A stretch of 64,000 bases of DNA from Azoarcus olearius (GTDB lineage Bacteria > Pseudomonadota > Gammaproteobacteria > Burkholderiales > Rhodocyclaceae), in the NCBI RefSeq assembly GCF_001682385.1, contig NZ_CP016210.1, positions 2,418,001-2,482,000 of the forward strand. The letters run 5' to 3'. The notes beneath the pieces are model-generated. The model was not told the origin of the DNA. It saw only the letters and a program-made list of their open reading frames with translations, and searched no databases. This document shows positions 11,199 to 21,604 of this stretch, piece after piece; the first letter of the stretch is position 1; each line of letters opens with the position of its first letter. The translations under genes were made by a program, and so were the position numbers.

Positions 11199-11224
11199 TC
11201 ACCCCTCCCGGTCTGCAAGACGGC

Positions 11225-11252
11225 GCCGCGAACTCCGCGGCCCGTTTTTTTT
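11225..11252 (+). terminator. Intrinsic terminator after the ETF-QO gene
   Basis: GCCGCG (11225-11230), a 5-base loop AACTC, and CGCGGC (11236-11241) form a perfect stem, followed within 3 bases by a T-run (11245-11252). It lies 27 bases after the ETF-QO stop codon. Confidence 0.85.
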
Positions 11253-11276
11253 GGCCTGCGCGCCAGACAGCCGCAC

Positions 11277-12314
11277 TCACCACTCGTATCCCAGACCGAA
11301 CTGCAGGCTGATGTCGGTGGTCTTGCGCCCATTGAGCGGCTGGCCGTCCCACTGCACGATGCCCTGGACCTGGGCTGTCAGACGATCGACGATCGGAAGG
11401 CGCAGCCCGGTGCGTGACCGCCACGTGATATCGCGCGCGTCCTCGATGTTCACGTAACCGTCCTGCTCGTGGAACACCTCGGCCTTGCGCCCGATCAGCC
11501 AGTGCCGGAACACCACGCCCCAGCCGAGCGCGGGAAACGTGACGTCCTTGTTCTCGATGCGGTGTTCTCGCACCAGATCCAGCCCGCCCTTCAGCGACAG
11601 GCCGGTGCTGTCGTTTTCGATCAGTTGCACGCCATAACCACCGCCCACCGCCGCGCGCAGCGACAGGTCGCGGAACGGATCGCGCTCGGCGAACGTGCGC
11701 GCATAGACGAAGCGCTTCTCGCGCGCGTCGGTAAACCAGTTCCGTTCGGCCGTGCCCAGCCAGTTGGACGCCGACAGATCGCCGTCGCGGGTACGGTGTT
11801 CGCCCCGAAAACGCAGGGCGAACCGGGCGCCCTTCTCCGCGCCGCGCAACTCCGCTTCGCCGACGATGTGCGTGGTGTTGCTGTTGCCGCTGTTGGAGCC
11901 GCCGCTCAGCGTGACGCGCCCGGCGTACTCCACCCCTGCGCCGGACTGGCTGGCCGTGGGATTGAGGTAGGCGATCCGCTCCAGCTTCACGGCGGGCACC
12001 TCGGGCACGGCGGCCAGCCGCGTCGCGCCGATCTCGGTGGCGCTGAGCAGCCGGCTCTCCAGTTGCCCCTCGTCGTTGCGCAGCAGCACGCGCACCGGCT
12101 TCTCGGTGTTCAACGTCTCCACCATGCGCCAGTCGATCTTGATCTTGCCCGCGTACTTGGTGTCCAGCACCAGCCCTTCGGGCGTTTTGTTGACGACGGT
12201 GCCGGTCAGACGGTCACCGTTCGTCAGCAGCACTTCGTCGGCAAGCGCACAGGTTGCCAGTGGCAGCGCCGCGGCCAGGAACGTGCAAGTGCGATGGACG
12301 GTTAAAGAGTTCAT
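11277..12314 (-). CDS. DUF481 outer-membrane beta-barrel protein (YdiY-like)
   Basis: Predicted product of 345 residues. A signal peptide ends at about residue 25 (TCALA). The segment at about 26-85 (LLTNGDRLTGTV and following) resembles the small SH3/Sm-like N-terminal module often seen in this family. The rest (about 125-345) is rich in alternating beta-strand patterns (RVTLSGGSNSGNSNTTH, FALRFRGEHRTRDGD) and ends in an aromatic residue (LGYEW), the outer-membrane barrel sorting signal. Function is unknown for the family. It lies 123 bases downstream of the copper operon on the same strand, so read-through is possible, but the spacing suggests its own promoter. Confidence 0.85.
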   Translation of the reverse strand: MNSLTVHRTCTFLAAALPLATCALADEVLLTNGDRLTGTVVNKTPEGLVLDTKYAGKIKIDWRMVETLNTEKPVRVLLRNDEGQLESRLLSATEIGATRLAAVPEVPAVKLERIAYLNPTASQSGAGVEYAGRVTLSGGSNSGNSNTTHIVGEAELRGAEKGARFALRFRGEHRTRDGDLSASNWLGTAERNWFTDAREKRFVYARTFAERDPFRDLSLRAAVGGGYGVQLIENDSTGLSLKGGLDLVREHRIENKDVTFPALGWGVVFRHWLIGRKAEVFHEQDGYVNIEDARDITWRSRTGLRLPIVDRLTAQVQGIVQWDGQPLNGRKTTDISLQFGLGYEW

Positions 12315-12437
12315 CGGCAGGTCGCTTCCTCGGGTTGCGCCGGCTCAGACTAAGCCGGGCAACCCCACGCTGCAACGCAACAGACATCTTTTTACCCATG
12401 CAATCGCTGCGCCCGGCGCTGCGGCCGGGCTGCCGCT

Positions 12438-12914
12438 TCAGCGCTTATGCTCGTGCATCGGTGCCACACCCGGGCTGTTGAGCGGGCGCACCGCCGCCTT
12501 CACTTCCACGCTTTCGCGCTTGCCGTCCTTCGCTTCGATCACCAGCGTCAGCGGCACGCTGTCGCCTTCGCGGATCTGCGCGGGCAGATCGATCAGCATC
12601 ACGTGATAGCCCCCCGGCTTCAGCTCGACCGGCTTGCCCGCCGGCAGGGCCAGCGCGGGAATGGCGCGCATCTTCATGATGTCGCCTTCCATCGCCATCT
12701 CGTGTACCTCCACCACTTTCGCCACGGGCGAGCGCACCTCGACAAGGCGCGCATCCTGCACGGAAGTGAGCTGCATGAAGGCACCGGTGCTCTTCTGGGC
12801 GGGCACGGTGGCGCGCACCCAAGGGTCCTTGACTGCGACCTGGGCCGCGGCGGTGGCGGAAACAAAGGCGGTGAGCAGGCCGATGGCGAGGGCGGGAATG
12901 AGGCGTGGGGTCAT
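12438..12914 (-). CDS. PCu(A)C-type periplasmic copper chaperone
   Basis: A 158-residue product with a signal peptide (cleavage after ATAAA at about 24). The family copper site H-x10-M-x21-H-x-M is intact: H71, M82, H104 and M106. PCu(A)C proteins carry Cu(I) in the periplasm and deliver it to the CuA centre of cytochrome c oxidase, working with thioredoxin-like proteins. The C-terminus adds a His-rich MHEHKR end. It is the last gene of the five-gene copper operon, 47 bases after the TlpA-like gene. The upstream extension of the open frame is a shadow of that gene. Confidence 0.95.
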   Translation of the reverse strand: MTPRLIPALAIGLLTAFVSATAAAQVAVKDPWVRATVPAQKSTGAFMQLTSVQDARLVEVRSPVAKVVEVHEMAMEGDIMKMRAIPALALPAGKPVELKPGGYHVMLIDLPAQIREGDSVPLTLVIEAKDGKRESVEVKAAVRPLNSPGVAPMHEHKR

Positions 12915-12961
12915 GAATTGGACTCCTGAACGTTGAAAGGGGAAGAGTGCGAAGGCCGCAG

Positions 12962-13432
12962 CTATCGAACACTGCGGCCAAGGGCAGCCAGCACGCGCTC
13001 GCGGTCGAGCACGCCGGTGAGCGCAACACGGCCGCCACGGCCGTCGAACAGCAGCGTCCGTGGCAGCTCGCCGCGCCAGGCGGGATCGAGCGCATAGGCC
13101 AGTGCCTCCGGCGCGTCGCTGCCGTAGGCGAAGCGTTTGCCGGGCACTGCCAGGCGGTCGAGCGGCACGGCAAGGTCGGCCGCCAGCGGCTGCGCCGCCA
13201 CCGTGACCACGCGCAGGCCGCGGTCTGCCGCCGCCAGTTCGGAGAACAGCTTGAGGTTCTTCTTGCAATGCACGCAGTCGGTGGACCACAGCGCGACTAT
13301 GGTCGGCCCGCCTTGGGCGGCGGCGTCGGTGAGACGTGCGGCACCTGCACGATCCAGCGGTTGCACGGCGTCTGCCGCGTGGACGGCGCCGATGCTGAGC
13401 ATCAGGCAGATGCCCGCGATCCAGGTTTTCAT
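12962..13432 (-). CDS. TlpA/ResA-like periplasmic thioredoxin
   Basis: A 156-residue product with a signal peptide (cleavage after VHA near residue 19) and one thioredoxin-like domain. The active site is WSTDCVHCKK, C53 and C56; the intervening VH instead of the usual PP/GP/EP suggests a specialised redox or copper-binding partner. In the family such proteins reduce the CuA cysteines or receive copper from PCu(A)C. Its ATG overlaps the stop of the upstream propeller gene (ATGA, 13429-13432), so translation is probably coupled. Confidence 0.88.
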   Translation of the reverse strand: MKTWIAGICLMLSIGAVHAADAVQPLDRAGAARLTDAAAQGGPTIVALWSTDCVHCKKNLKLFSELAAADRGLRVVTVAAQPLAADLAVPLDRLAVPGKRFAYGSDAPEALAYALDPAWRGELPRTLLFDGRGGRVALTGVLDRERVLAALGRSVR

Positions 13433-14646
13433 GGCAGTGCGTACCCCCTCATGCCTTCGCGTTCGGTTCGCCAGAAGGCGAGCAGACGATCGCCGCTACG
13501 AACCAGCCGCGGCTGGTCCGAAGCGCCTTCGGTGGCGGCCAGCGTCCGTGCTTCGCCGAATTGGCGGCCGCCATCGGTGGACAGTTCGGCACGCAACTGG
13601 GTGCGCGTGCCGTCGAACTCCTTCCACACGACGGCCACGACATCCCGCCCGGCGACAGCGATGTCGGCGTGCGCCGCGCGTTCGCCGCCGACGCTGCGCT
13701 GGCCTTCCACGGCGTCGCCGGTGAGCCGGCCGTAGAACACCCGGGGCTCGCCCTCCCTGGCGTTGAACCACACCGCATGGCGGGTGCCGTCCGCAGCGAT
13801 CGCCAGCGACGGGCCGTGATGCGGGCAGGCGTCGATGTGCCAGCGGTCGAAGGTGGCGCGCACCACGGCTCCCGGCTTGCCCGCGGCATCGAACCGGGTC
13901 AGCGCGTGATCGCGCTCGTTGGTACCGAAGACATGGCGCCACAGCACCACCGGCACACCGTCGACATCGTTGGCGATGGCGATGCGGCAGCACTCGCAGG
14001 AATGATCGGCGAGCTTCACCTCCGGGCGGAAGCTGCGCCCGCCGTCGGTGGAGACCGCGGCATACACCGCCGCGCCACGGTAGTCGGCCTTGGTGCCCTG
14101 CTTGCGGCGGGCAGCCTCGAGGTCGCGCTTGTCGATCCAGGTCACCAGTACCTGGCCGCTGCCGCTGACCGCGAGCGAGTCGAAACGATGGGTGATCTCG
14201 TCGCGGTTGCGGTGCACGGTGATCGGCGCGTCGAAGTGTTCGCCGTCAGCGGCGCGGGCGAAGCGGATCTCGCCGCTGTAGGGCTTGGCGAGCGGTTTGG
14301 TCCAGGAGACCAGCGCGGCGCCATCGGGCATGAAGGCGAGCTTGGGGCGGTTCTCGCCGTCGGCGGAAATCCGCTCCGGCTCACGGTTCACCACGCCCCG
14401 CGTCTGCCAGTGCACACCGCCGTCGTCGCTCCGGTAGAGCAACACGTGGCCACCTTCCACGCCGACCGCATGCAGCGAGCCGTCGGGCGCGAAAGCAACG
14501 CTGGTGCCGAGTTCCGGCCGGGCCGCAGCGGGGGTCGCCGCGGGTGCGGCGCCGTGGTCGCCGTGCGCCTGCGCCGCGGGCGCCGCCAGCGCGGCAAGCG
14601 CCAGCGCAGCCGCTGCCAGCAGCCGGCGTCTGGGGGAGATATCCAT
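13429..14646 (-). CDS. BNR/sialidase-fold beta-propeller with CECC and HxxxCxHH motifs
   Basis: A 405-residue product; the start at 14646 follows the TonB-receptor stop by one base. A signal peptide (cleavage near AQA, residue 27) exposes a mature N-terminus starting HGDHG. Three Asp-box repeats are visible (SDDGGVHW at 73, STDGGRSF at 199, STDGGRQF at 356), the hallmark of sialidase-like propellers, but I see no sialidase catalytic context. Unusual for this fold are a CECC cluster (C217, C219, C220 after H215) and H270-x3-C274-x-H276-H277. These, together with the copper genes on both sides, point to metal binding. The annotation 'sialidase' would be misleading. Function is inferred. Confidence 0.8.
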   Translation of the reverse strand: MDISPRRRLLAAAALALAALAAPAAQAHGDHGAAPAATPAAARPELGTSVAFAPDGSLHAVGVEGGHVLLYRSDDGGVHWQTRGVVNREPERISADGENRPKLAFMPDGAALVSWTKPLAKPYSGEIRFARAADGEHFDAPITVHRNRDEITHRFDSLAVSGSGQVLVTWIDKRDLEAARRKQGTKADYRGAAVYAAVSTDGGRSFRPEVKLADHSCECCRIAIANDVDGVPVVLWRHVFGTNERDHALTRFDAAGKPGAVVRATFDRWHIDACPHHGPSLAIAADGTRHAVWFNAREGEPRVFYGRLTGDAVEGQRSVGGERAAHADIAVAGRDVVAVVWKEFDGTRTQLRAELSTDGGRQFGEARTLAATEGASDQPRLVRSGDRLLAFWRTEREGMRGYALP

Positions 14647-14647
14647 C

Positions 14648-16939
14648 TCAGTAGCTGATTGCAAGTTCGGCATAGGCGGTGCGTCCCGGATAAGGGTGAT
14701 AGACGTAATAGCGCTCATCGGTGAGGTTGTCGACGCCGACGGCGAGGCGGGCCTGGCGGCTGAAGCGGTAGACGAAGCGCGCATCGGCAACGGTGAAGCT
14801 CGACACCGCGCCGAAGGTGTCACTGTTGCGGTCGCTGTTGTCGAGTTCGTTGTATTGCTTGCCAGAATGGCGCACGCCGAGCGAGGCGGTCCACGGCCCC
14901 TGCGTGTAGCTGCCGAAGACGCTGGCGCGGATGCGCGGGATGCGCGGGAAGTTCTTGCCTTCGGACGCCGGCACCGCCGGATTGGACAGGGTGAGCGCGC
15001 GGTTGAACGCAAGGCTCGCCTGCACGTCCAGCCCATCGACGAAGAGATCACTCCCCTGCCAGGCGAACTCGATGCCGCGGGTGCGCACCCGGTCGACGTT
15101 CTGCACCGTATTCACGGTGACGCCACCGACATCCTGGCGCTGCTGGAAGATCGCGTCGCGGATGTTGTCCTGGAAGACCGACACCCGCAGGCTGCCCGCG
15201 CCGGTGTCGCGGATCGCGGTCAGTTCGATCGCATCGCTCTTCTCCGGCTTCAGGTCGGGATCGTTGTTGTAGATGGTGTTGTTCGACACCGTACCCTGGA
15301 ACAGCTCGGAAACCGTCGGAAAGCGCACGCCGCGGCCGTAGGAGGCCCGCAGCAGCCAGTAGTCGTCGACGACGTAGGCCAGCGACAGCTTGGGGCTGGC
15401 GGCGGAGGCCTTGCGGTCCTCGTGCCCGACCCGGGTGCCGGCGGCGAACTGTTCGCCGTCATAGGCGCGGAAACGCTCCAGGCGCAGCCCGGCGGTGGCG
15501 ACCCAGTCGGGGTGGAAGCGCCAGGCGTCCTGCGCGTAGAGCGCCTGCACCTCGGTCTTGCCGAGGTAGTTCTGGGTCTCGCCGGTACGGCTGGAACTGC
15601 TGTGCCAGTCGCTCAGTGCATAGACGCGGTTTTCCAGTTCGTAGACGTTGCGGTGATAGCCGAAGGTGAGTGCGTGGCCCAGTCGGCTCTCCGGCGTCCA
15701 TGTCGTCTGCGCCTCGAAAGTCGTCCAGCCGGTGCCGTCCCGGCGGGTGTCGGTGCCTGCCACCGCGCCCCTGGCGTAGGGATCCGAGACATTGGCCTGA
15801 CGCAGGCTGTCGGTCTGCAACTGGTAGCTCGACAACTGAATCGAGTGGTTCCAGCCGTGCTCGCGCAGCGTGCGCAGGCGCGCGCCGAGTTGCAGATGCT
15901 CGTCCTCGCCGCGCTGCGGCTGCATCGCCGGCAGGTTGTAGCGCAGGCCGTCGATATTGACCGCGCTCGATCCGCTCGCCGGCCGCCAGTACGGATTGCC
16001 GGCAGCATCGCGCAGCAGCGTCTCGTTGCTGACGCGGTAGTCGTTGCGCCAGTGCGCCACCAGCATGTCGGCCTGCAATTCCGGCGTGATGTCGTAAGCC
16101 AGCCGCAGCTTGGCCTGTTGCTGCACGCCCTCCTGGATGCCGGTCGCGCCGAGAATCGTGCGTGCCCTGCCGGACGGATCCCGGTCGTGCACCGCACCGC
16201 TCACCGCCGGCAGGCCGGCGACGTTGGCATTCACCGGGTTCGCACTGGCGTAAGCCATCGGCTGCGATTCGTAGGCCAGGCGGTTGACCGACAGCGATAG
16301 CGAGAGGTCGCCCCAGCGGCGGCCTGCATAGGCGCTCTCCTCGTCGCCGCCGTAGTCGCGGCTGAGACCGTAGTCCTTGTGGCGCTGGCGGTAGGCAAGC
16401 ACCCGCGCCGACGCTTCCGGCTCGGTCGGCATGCGAGTGGTGATCGCCACCGTGGTGCCGATCGAGTTGCCCGGATAGAGCGCCGAGAACGGTCCGTAGA
16501 GCACGTCGGTGCGGGCCACTTCCTCCGGCGCGACGATGTTCCAGCGCGGCGCATCGAAGCGGCCGAGGAAGTTCGAGATCAGGTAGCCATCGACATAGGC
16601 CAGCCCGCGGGCCGGCTGCAGCGTGCCGAACGAGCGCCCGGCGAGGTTGGCGTTGCGGTCGCCGATGAAGCGCTTGCGCACTGCGGTGTTGGGCGCGTAG
16701 GTGAGCGCGTCCTCGGTATTGATGAAGCTCTGGTTCTCCAGCTCCTTGCGGGTGGTCGAATGGCTCGACGACGGCAGGGTTGGATCCAGCGACTCGCGGG
16801 CGCCGTCGGTGGCGACCACGACGGCGTTCAGTTCGCGCTCGGTGGCGACGCCCTGTGCGAGCGCGGCGGGCGCAACGAGGGCCGCGAAAGCGGCGCCCAG
16901 CGCGACCACCAGCGGCTTGATGTGCGGCTGACGATACAT
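14648..16939 (-). CDS. TonB-dependent outer-membrane receptor, probably for copper
   Basis: A 763-residue receptor. The signal peptide ends at ALA (about 28), a TonB box ELNAVVV follows at 36-42, then the plug domain (about 60-170, with RTDVLYGPFSALYPGNSIG) and a C-terminal barrel ending LAISY. It imports a scarce metal or metal complex using proton-motive force through TonB. The copper assignment is by context: a DUF2946 upstream ORF before it and a PCu(A)C chaperone after it. I could not identify a specific substrate-binding motif. The start is preceded by GAAGGAACG and by a possible hairpin. Confidence 0.92.
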   Translation of the reverse strand: MYRQPHIKPLVVALGAAFAALVAPAALAQGVATERELNAVVVATDGARESLDPTLPSSSHSTTRKELENQSFINTEDALTYAPNTAVRKRFIGDRNANLAGRSFGTLQPARGLAYVDGYLISNFLGRFDAPRWNIVAPEEVARTDVLYGPFSALYPGNSIGTTVAITTRMPTEPEASARVLAYRQRHKDYGLSRDYGGDEESAYAGRRWGDLSLSLSVNRLAYESQPMAYASANPVNANVAGLPAVSGAVHDRDPSGRARTILGATGIQEGVQQQAKLRLAYDITPELQADMLVAHWRNDYRVSNETLLRDAAGNPYWRPASGSSAVNIDGLRYNLPAMQPQRGEDEHLQLGARLRTLREHGWNHSIQLSSYQLQTDSLRQANVSDPYARGAVAGTDTRRDGTGWTTFEAQTTWTPESRLGHALTFGYHRNVYELENRVYALSDWHSSSSRTGETQNYLGKTEVQALYAQDAWRFHPDWVATAGLRLERFRAYDGEQFAAGTRVGHEDRKASAASPKLSLAYVVDDYWLLRASYGRGVRFPTVSELFQGTVSNNTIYNNDPDLKPEKSDAIELTAIRDTGAGSLRVSVFQDNIRDAIFQQRQDVGGVTVNTVQNVDRVRTRGIEFAWQGSDLFVDGLDVQASLAFNRALTLSNPAVPASEGKNFPRIPRIRASVFGSYTQGPWTASLGVRHSGKQYNELDNSDRNSDTFGAVSSFTVADARFVYRFSRQARLAVGVDNLTDERYYVYHPYPGRTAYAELAISY

Positions 16940-16955
16940 GTGAAACCCGTTCCTT

Positions 16956-16994
16956 CGTCTCGGCCGAGGTCCACCCGGGACATCGCCGAAGACG
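16956..16994 (-). promoter_or_regulatory. Possible leader hairpin beside the TonB-receptor ribosome-binding site
   Basis: On the minus strand CGTCTTCGGC (16994-16985) can pair with GCCGAGACG (16964-16956), with one bulged base; the intervening loop itself contains TCCCGGG. The 3' arm runs directly into the GAAGGA ribosome-binding site of the receptor gene. It lies in the 253-base leader between the DUF2946 stop and the receptor start, where post-transcriptional control would act. Seen by eye only; folding energy was not computed. Confidence 0.35.
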
Positions 16995-17192
16995 CATGCA
17001 TGTGGCTAGACGACTCGTGGCCGTTACCGCACCAACGGGCGGTGGCCAGGCGAAAGCAAGGCGGCGACCGGCCTCGTGCAGCAGTGGCGCAGGCGACGCA
17101 TCAAGCCTTTTGGACGAATCGATTCAGACAGCAGCGGCCGGGGGCGTACTCGCGTGTTTCCCCGCAGGGAGAACCCGAGCAGTCCGGCAGGA

Positions 17193-17585
17193 TCAGGCGG
17201 AAAGCGGTGGTGCGCGCGGTTGCGCAGCCGCCCAGGCGAAGAGCGGGCGCGGCGCGGCGTAGTAGAGCGGCGGCAGGACGTCGGCCCCGCCGGCAACGGC
17301 GAAGACCGGGACATCCGCCGGCGGCAGACCGAAGCTGCCGGCGTGGGTAAAGCAGTAAGGACAATGCTCGCCCATGGCCTGGGCAGGCTTGCCGCCGCCG
17401 TCCCCATGGTCGCCCGCCACGGCAACCCGTTCGGTACCGGCGACCGTACAGATCTCCAGCCACCGCGCCTCGTCCCCCGCCCGGGCAGCCATCAACTGGC
17501 TGACCACCGGCGCCAACGCAGCCAGCAGGATTGCGAAGCTCGCGATCCAGGCAGTGCAGCGTTGGCGGGAACGAAGTCGGAACAT
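17193..17585 (-). CDS. DUF2946 small protein, CruR-like copper-responsive upstream ORF
   Basis: Predicted product of 130 residues. It has a hydrophobic N-terminal segment (about 12-32, signal-like), C46, and a conserved H74-C75-P-Y-C78-x2-H81 cluster typical of DUF2946, followed by a proline-rich tail. In Bordetella pertussis a DUF2946 upstream ORF (CruR) with a CxxC motif represses the downstream TonB receptor gene when copper is plentiful; translation of the ORF itself is the sensor. Position and motif match: it precedes the TonB receptor by a 253-base leader. The regulatory role here is inferred from that precedent. It may alternatively act as a small periplasmic metal-binding protein. Confidence 0.8.
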   Translation of the reverse strand: MFRLRSRQRCTAWIASFAILLAALAPVVSQLMAARAGDEARWLEICTVAGTERVAVAGDHGDGGGKPAQAMGEHCPYCFTHAGSFGLPPADVPVFAVAGGADVLPPLYYAAPRPLFAWAAAQPRAPPLSA

Positions 17586-17615
17586 GCGTGGGCGGTTGCG
17601 GTATGTCAGGGCGCG

Positions 17616-17621
17616 ATTCTA
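17616..17621 (-). promoter_or_regulatory. Candidate -10 element for the copper operon
   Basis: TAGAAT on the minus strand, about 31 bases upstream of the DUF2946 start and in the 77-base gap after purL. No good -35 hexamer is seen at the standard spacing, and no obvious MerR-type dyad. A constitutive promoter would fit an operon controlled after transcription. Weak evidence. Confidence 0.3.
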
Positions 17622-17662
17622 GCGGCGCGCGTGGGCGCCGCCTTGATCGCGATCAGTTACGC

Positions 17663-21604
<3,942 letters not shown>

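Follow-up and report, generated by a model that had tools for sequence, protein, structure and literature searches.

Little is understood of how copper that has passed an outer-membrane receptor crosses the Gram-negative periplasm and reaches the chaperones supplying respiratory enzymes. One locus in Azoarcus olearius raises the question of whether a single operon could cover this route. The window analysed here is a stretch of 64,000 nucleotides (contig NZ_CP016210.1, positions 2,418,001 to 2,482,000), and between its positions 12438 and 17585 five minus-strand open reading frames (ORFs) encode, from 5' to 3', a DUF2946 protein, a TonB-dependent receptor, a propeller protein, a thioredoxin-like protein and a PCu(A)C chaperone. 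We consider it probable that the whole is a copper import and delivery operon controlled by a counterpart of CruR, the copper-responsive upstream ORF (uORF) of Bordetella pertussis. CruR-headed operons of this kind are known; the core of the present one is strongly conserved and uncharacterised. A sensor, a receptor and a chaperone are united in it with a candidate carrier and a candidate reductant, which makes the missing periplasmic step directly testable.

The DUF2946 upstream ORF and control of the operon

We read the five genes as one unit from their spacing and conservation. The DUF2946 uORF, here called cruR (17193-17585), heads the run and is followed after 253 bases by the receptor gene (14648-16939). 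A single base separates the receptor gene from the propeller gene (13429-14646), the propeller and thioredoxin genes (the latter at 12962-13432) overlap in an ATGA junction, and after a further 47 bases the PCu(A)C gene (12438-12914) closes the same run. The original prediction had described five same-strand genes with these products and with 1-base and ATGA junctions; coordinates, profiles and models agree with that description.

The cruR product has 130 amino acids (aa) with an N-terminal hydrophobic stretch, and it scores 94.4 bits on PF11162 (cut-off 23.7). No other protein of the genome, a single contig of 4.45 Mb, matches at E <= 0.001; at this threshold DUF2946 proteins were found in 108 of 300 genomes of the order, the window protein being the strongest. 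Its sequence carries CPYC at aa 75-78 (17352-17363), a predicted nascent-chain copper sensor that is kept in a same-genus relative with 57% identity. After 45 residues follows RAPP at aa 124-127 (17205-17216), a predicted ribosome arrest site, and then three residues, LSA, to the C-terminus. In CruR of Bordetella pertussis the two motifs also lie 45 residues apart, with RAPP three residues from the end (Roy 2022, PMC9426467). Mutations in RAPP of CruR abolished downstream expression and mutations in CxxC strongly impaired copper control; termination was Rho-dependent, and a bubble in which C exceeds G spanned the gene into the intergenic region (PMC9426467). Arrest of the B. pertussis peptide at RAPP has been demonstrated in vitro, and RAPP-type uORF classes precede genes for thioredoxin-domain proteins, TonB receptors and PCu(A)C proteins (PMC12992588). 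Because RAPP is present, an arrest mechanism is likely in A. olearius as well. By composition only, the stretch of the window in which C exceeds G starts inside cruR near 17361 and reaches to about 17016, with C/G up to 1.77 around 17241, and on this basis the 253-bp intergenic region (16940-17192) is the predicted zone of Rho-dependent termination. CPYC had been pointed out by the original prediction, which missed RAPP; its proposal of a CruR-type sensor finds good sequence support in the PF11162 match, the CPYC-45-RAPP spacing, the 253-bp gap and the C-rich stretch.

The same hallmarks recur in other genomes. Among 47 unique CruR-like ORFs upstream of propeller genes, 40 have a CxxC and R[AG]PP pair, with a spacing of 45 residues in 27, 46 in 8, 44 in 2, 42 in 2 and 47 in 1. 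The region of the stop codon, from 120 nt upstream to 60 nt downstream, has a positive C-G skew in 47/47, a count that ignores kinship among the ORFs, and a skew above that of an earlier 180-nt stretch in 45/47. Two observations pull in the other direction: the pair is missing from 7 of the 47, and in the window an excess of C over G is seen at the 5' end of cruR too, so that the skew is wider than the 3' part.

These hallmarks were also weighed against a uORF of the CutF kind, with which copper would promote rather than stop expression of the downstream genes. CruR and CutF appear in one list of CutF-like proteins, in separate similarity clusters, and CutF raises CutO production with copper through an mRNA stem-loop over the ribosome-binding site of the next gene; among the neighbours of CutF-like proteins are TonB-like and PCu(A)C proteins (PMC9973294). 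The exact CxxC-45-RAPP arrangement, the long C-rich intergenic region and the acquisition genes downstream speak against such a mechanism, which we regard as very unlikely at this locus. We conclude that the identity of the uORF as CruR is well supported, and that the operon is, as far as its sequence can tell, likely to be under CruR control.

Under this control, when copper is scarce, ribosomes would stall at RAPP near the end of cruR; with the C-rich RNA thus covered against Rho, transcription would continue into the four structural genes. With ample copper, the metal would bind CPYC of the nascent chain and relieve the stall, and Rho would terminate transcription in the 253-bp intergenic region. 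Two CruR-like uORFs surround one propeller operon at four other loci (L081, L112, L124 and L138, the last with one of its two uORFs recognised by pattern alone), which suggests more than one arrest-peptide checkpoint there.

A recurrent receptor-propeller-thioredoxin block

Of the 300 genomes surveyed in the order, 44 have a match to the propeller (its own included, E <= 1e-10), as have 17 of the 398 surveyed in the phylum (its own included, E <= 1e-20); at least 559 matching stretches came from a genome collection, and the best 80 of these were analysed. Together with the window and 40 loci from the order survey, these 80 give 121 loci, or 116 once 5 duplicates are removed; the 40 exclude the weak matches in G002, G005 and G073 and a second match each in G063, G107 and G274. 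Neighbours were counted with hidden Markov models (HMMs) built from the same loci. A TonB receptor gene ends within 1 kb upstream of the propeller gene in 102 of the 113 loci with enough flank, and 3 of the other 11 have a receptor gene downstream. A thioredoxin-like gene starts within 0.7 kb downstream in 102/112. In 45/97 a same-strand CruR is found no more than 6 kb upstream, against a chance expectation of well under 1/97 (our own arithmetic, from about half a DUF2946 gene per 4-Mb genome), and 17 of the 116 non-redundant loci, window included, contain a PCu(A)C gene in the same orientation.

Gene orders were tallied over 132 records, namely the 121 loci and 11 from the phylum survey, with the window and 5 duplicate records included. 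Receptor-propeller-thioredoxin accounts for 54 of them and CruR-receptor-propeller-thioredoxin for 25. The full order of the window, ending in PCu(A)C, is found in 10 (11 with L225, whose CruR is seen by pattern only), and CruR-PCu(A)C-receptor-propeller-thioredoxin in 7, the remainder being other arrangements. Six genomes beyond the window's class, in another class of Pseudomonadota, have the exact five-gene order; five of them come from one genus (6.7-8.8 Mb), and in one of the six (L227) CruR is identified by HMM without a visible CxxC-RAPP pattern. The five-gene order is more than chance. Other block arrangements were also observed. One same-genus genome holds two CruR-receptor-propeller-thioredoxin blocks (L253 and L254); behind the first of them lie PCu(A)C, one more CruR and one more receptor. 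In L051-L056 propeller blocks lie near varying sets of a second receptor, a 4Fe-4S membrane protein with NapH similarity below the cut-off, a DsbD-like membrane protein, TonB-ExbB-ExbD and a protein of about 300 aa.

What would the receptor carry? The window receptor (763 aa) matches the barrel profile with 192.5 bits and the plug profile with 47.5, each above its cut-off. It is not OprC, since TIGR01778 gives 46.3 bits against a cut-off of 472.45; a receptor near several of the relatives was dropped as an OprC candidate for the same reason (112 against 472). We label as class A those receptors that score more than 200 bits to the window receptor in BLAST. Of 99 full-length receptors adjoining propellers (duplicates included), 54 are class A, with invariant histidines H422 and H429 in the window numbering, and 45 are others, 3 of which score 152-195 bits and 15 of which have no match to the window receptor. 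Because so many receptors fall outside class A, and some match not at all, we conclude that receptors are exchanged and that the propeller-thioredoxin pair is the more constant part.

Class A receptors also occur without a propeller. In 4 of 20 CruR regions (L186, L202, L192 and L204) one follows CruR with no propeller gene, and in L192 and L204 PCu(A)C lies between the two, the L204 receptor being split in two ORFs. These loci are independent support for the predicted copper role. In other CruR-receptor operons (L188 and L190) the gene after the receptor encodes MbnP. The PepSY_TM gene stands next to CrtA in more than 75% of CrtA loci (PMC12914433); after the window receptor comes the propeller gene instead. 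Comparison of the window receptor with those of three CruR-receptor-PepSY_TM loci found a weak local similarity in L194 (E 1.7e-6), a match at chance level in L187 (E 0.41) and nothing in L199. A residue-spacing pattern that we derived from the published residue numbers of CrtA, and which is without a positive control, was found in 0/54 class A receptors, 6/45 others and 0/13 CruR-linked receptors.

The diversity of receptors could mean that the block imports another metal or a cofactor, such as iron, heme or zinc, with CruR only adding crosstalk from copper. Such a reading draws on the split into 54 class A and 45 other receptors at the 200-bit cut. It draws also on the profiles, in which the window receptor is best on heme and siderophore receptors, all below cut-off, and on its closest solved sequence, the heme receptor PhuR (E 7e-23), with OprC behind (2e-7). 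A further difficulty for a copper operon is that 52 of the 97 loci have no detected upstream CruR, which makes the block independent of CruR. CruR or PCu(A)C neighbours nevertheless recur in distant genomes, and class A receptors stand with CruR and PCu(A)C at L192 and L204, where there is no propeller. We therefore hold import of a different cargo to be highly improbable. From the gene content of the locus and its relatives, there is a strong case that the operon serves copper import, and an import-and-delivery route, as the original prediction had it, remains the best reading. The receptor would carry copper through the outer membrane.

The propeller, its thioredoxin and copper delivery

The propeller protein (405 aa) begins with a signal-like N-terminus followed by HGDHG, and it matches no Pfam or NCBIfam profile above cut-off. 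BNR_2 scores 22.6 against a cut-off of 31.4 for the window protein and is matched at E <= 0.001 by 38/38 family members. Where inspected, family members are annotated as "sialidase family protein". The fold was modelled as a propeller with confidence (predicted local distance difference test, pLDDT, 92). Two short motifs stand out in the alignment: CECC at aa 217-220 (13987-13998), ahead of the inner strand of a blade, and CPHH at aa 274-277 (13816-13827), in the same register of the next blade. All four cysteines (CxCC and CP) are present in 116/116 unique propeller sequences. CPHH conservation in the 80 collection loci is partly by construction, because the pattern [AG]CPHHG[PG]x[LI][ASV] was used to find them; in a set not selected by this motif, C274 is kept in 41/41, H276 in 39/41 and H277 in 38/41. 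Histidine is also frequent in this set at N-terminal positions 28 (20/41) and 31 (27/41).

Distant relatives of the propeller lie on plasmids of the Roseobacter family and of Methylomagnum (L235-L242). Copper oxidase, multicopper oxidase, CopC/CopD or copper-binding genes were found within ~5 kb in 7 of these 8 regions, which were hand-picked among 25 of 60 records and of which 7 are from Roseobacteraceae. The operon in the window suggests that the large family to which its propeller belongs, labelled as sialidases where inspected, may be one of copper proteins. A conjugative type was assigned to three of the plasmids. Elsewhere, one genome of the order survey has, besides an intact copy, a second, broken propeller in two pieces, one with two in-frame TGA stops (G107:C1:600048-601140).

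The gene that accompanies the propeller encodes a predicted thioredoxin-fold thiol-disulfide oxidoreductase of 156 aa with a CVHC active site at aa 53-56 (13265-13276). No Pfam or NCBIfam profile matches it above cut-off; its model finds ResA, CcmG and DsbE as best Foldseek matches, with TlpA among the matches, suggesting a protein of the ResA/CcmG/TlpA kind. Both cysteines of CxxC are present in 106/106 thioredoxins adjoining propellers. PF00578 (AhpC-TSA) was matched at E <= 0.001 by 14 of 30 scanned thioredoxins, the window protein not among them. CruR operons are described as containing AhpC_TSA genes, which were interpreted as serving peroxide detoxification (Roy 2022, PMC9426467). A thiol reductase for copper-site cysteines would fit better, and the propeller-linked thioredoxin may be the very AhpC/TSA protein that the earlier CruR survey counted as peroxide-detoxifying.

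We propose that the propeller is a new kind of periplasmic copper carrier. It would be seven-bladed and would receive periplasmic copper at a Cys/His site at the mouth of the central channel, holding Cu(I) between the CxCC and CPHH loops of two neighbouring blades. Its partner thioredoxin, a dedicated reductant perhaps counted earlier as AhpC/TSA, would keep the propeller cysteines reduced, as TlpA does for ScoI. The propeller would then hand copper to PCu(A)C and so link outer-membrane receptors of differing lineages to the inner delivery chaperones. To this proposal in full we assign an even chance. That the propeller handles copper at all is plausible on the evidence of motifs and neighbours, and if anything slightly favoured.

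The conserved cysteines could also be explained without copper. The uORF would still be CruR and the operon copper-regulated, and the propeller would be structural or bind a ligand, for example an organic copper chelate or the receptor in docking; its four cysteines would form two disulfides that the thioredoxin only isomerises or reduces during folding. The neighbours of the modelled fold are lectins, sialidases and lyases, the best solved sequence matches of the family profile are sialidases, and cysteines in the periplasm could pair. Moreover, 10 of 112 loci have no thioredoxin gene directly downstream (3 have one upstream) and their propellers still have the four cysteines, which could simply be disulfides. 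Two aligned roseobacter relatives have other residues in place of H290 and of the HH of CPHH, a further count against a Cys/His copper site. On the other side, CxCC and CP are kept in all three plasmid relatives that were translated. Going by incomplete plasmid gene tables, their regions lack a TonB receptor, and genes for copper oxidase, multicopper oxidase or CopC lie at distances of up to ~5 kb; one of these three regions has a protein-disulfide isomerase gene. The histidines common at positions 28 and 31 likewise do not favour a purely structural role. Taken together, we judge a propeller without copper to be unlikely, though a serious alternative to the carrier that we propose.

Which enzymes would receive the copper? 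The PCu(A)C protein (158 aa) matches PF04314 with 126.8 bits against a cut-off of 29.4, and it contains the copper motif H-X10-M-X21-H-X-M exactly, at aa 71-106 (12597-12704; motif as defined in PMC6696091). From here Cu(I) would pass to CuA-type sites of respiratory enzymes. At E <= 0.001 it is the sole PCu(A)C match in the genome, which has one Sco match as well. It encodes three COX2-domain proteins: the first ends in a cytochrome c-like tail, the next is another COX2, and the third we take, without a profile match as the basis, to be nitrous-oxide-reductase-like. All three contain C-x3-C-x3-H-x2-M, presumably the CuA signature. With one PCu(A)C match and three such proteins, the operon carries the only PCu(A)C found in the genome for several copper enzymes. 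The CuA site of cytochrome oxidase, which the original prediction had named as the target, is thus possible but need not be the sole one, and copper supply may connect to nitrous oxide reduction.

Upstream of cruR, a long same-strand ORF that we recognise as purL ends at 17663, 77 bp ahead of cruR, and a DUF481 gene (11277-12314) lies on the same strand 123 bp downstream of PCu(A)C. A promoter consensus scan of 11200-17900 gave 0 sigma-70-like sites, with 0.4 expected; a scan of the same range for intrinsic terminators gave none on the minus strand and 2 terminator-like sites on the other, with 2.9 expected.

Comparison with known systems

The original prediction had presented the extension of CruR control from a receptor to a delivery route as new. 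It was already published: CruR operons with receptor, Sco and PCu(A)C genes are described, as is a CruR-headed oxidase-biogenesis operon of Bradyrhizobium that is induced by copper starvation (Roy 2022, PMC9426467). CruR regulation, receptor-bearing CruR operons and the presence of PCu(A)C and Sco in them are therefore known, and a propeller in CruR operons is apparently not in print. Propeller, sialidase and thioredoxin do not occur as words in the main texts of PMC9426467, PMC9973294 and PMC12914433, nor do propeller and sialidase in PMC12992588, figure labels and supplements lying outside this count. Among the titles and opening lines of the open-access literature we found no publication on a copper role for the propeller family, an absence that is not proof. 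PCu(A)C and Sco are reported in a few operons of CrtA (PMC12914433), and CrpH has been described (PMC13038864).

Sialidase-like (BNR) propellers and the PLL lectins of Photorhabdus differ from the window family, with ~13% identity in the alignment; CxCC and CPHH mark the window family, and the BNR_2 score of the window protein stays below cut-off. OprC is, like the window receptor in our reading, a TonB receptor with a copper role, and is set apart by the TIGR01778 score given above. The copper-starvation operon of Bradyrhizobium japonicum, which we take to be the one named pcuABCDE, offers a closer parallel. It has a CruR homolog at its head, a receptor, PCu(A)C-type proteins (PcuC) and a function in oxidase biogenesis (PMC6696091, PMC9426467); the descriptions compared here name no propeller or thioredoxin. 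For the thioredoxin-propeller pair the model is TlpA, a thioredoxin-fold CxxC protein by which the copper-site cysteines of its partners ScoI and CoxB are kept reduced; the differences are that the partner here would be a propeller and that TlpA is membrane-anchored (PMC6696091). The CruR-BfrG(CrtA)-CrpH operon of B. pertussis shares with the window a DUF2946 uORF as first gene, CxxC-45-RAPP, a long C-rich intergenic region and a TonB receptor next; its third gene encodes a PepSY_TM protein, whereas the window continues with propeller, thioredoxin and PCu(A)C (Roy 2022, PMC9426467; Hachmi 2026, PMC12914433 and PMC13038864).

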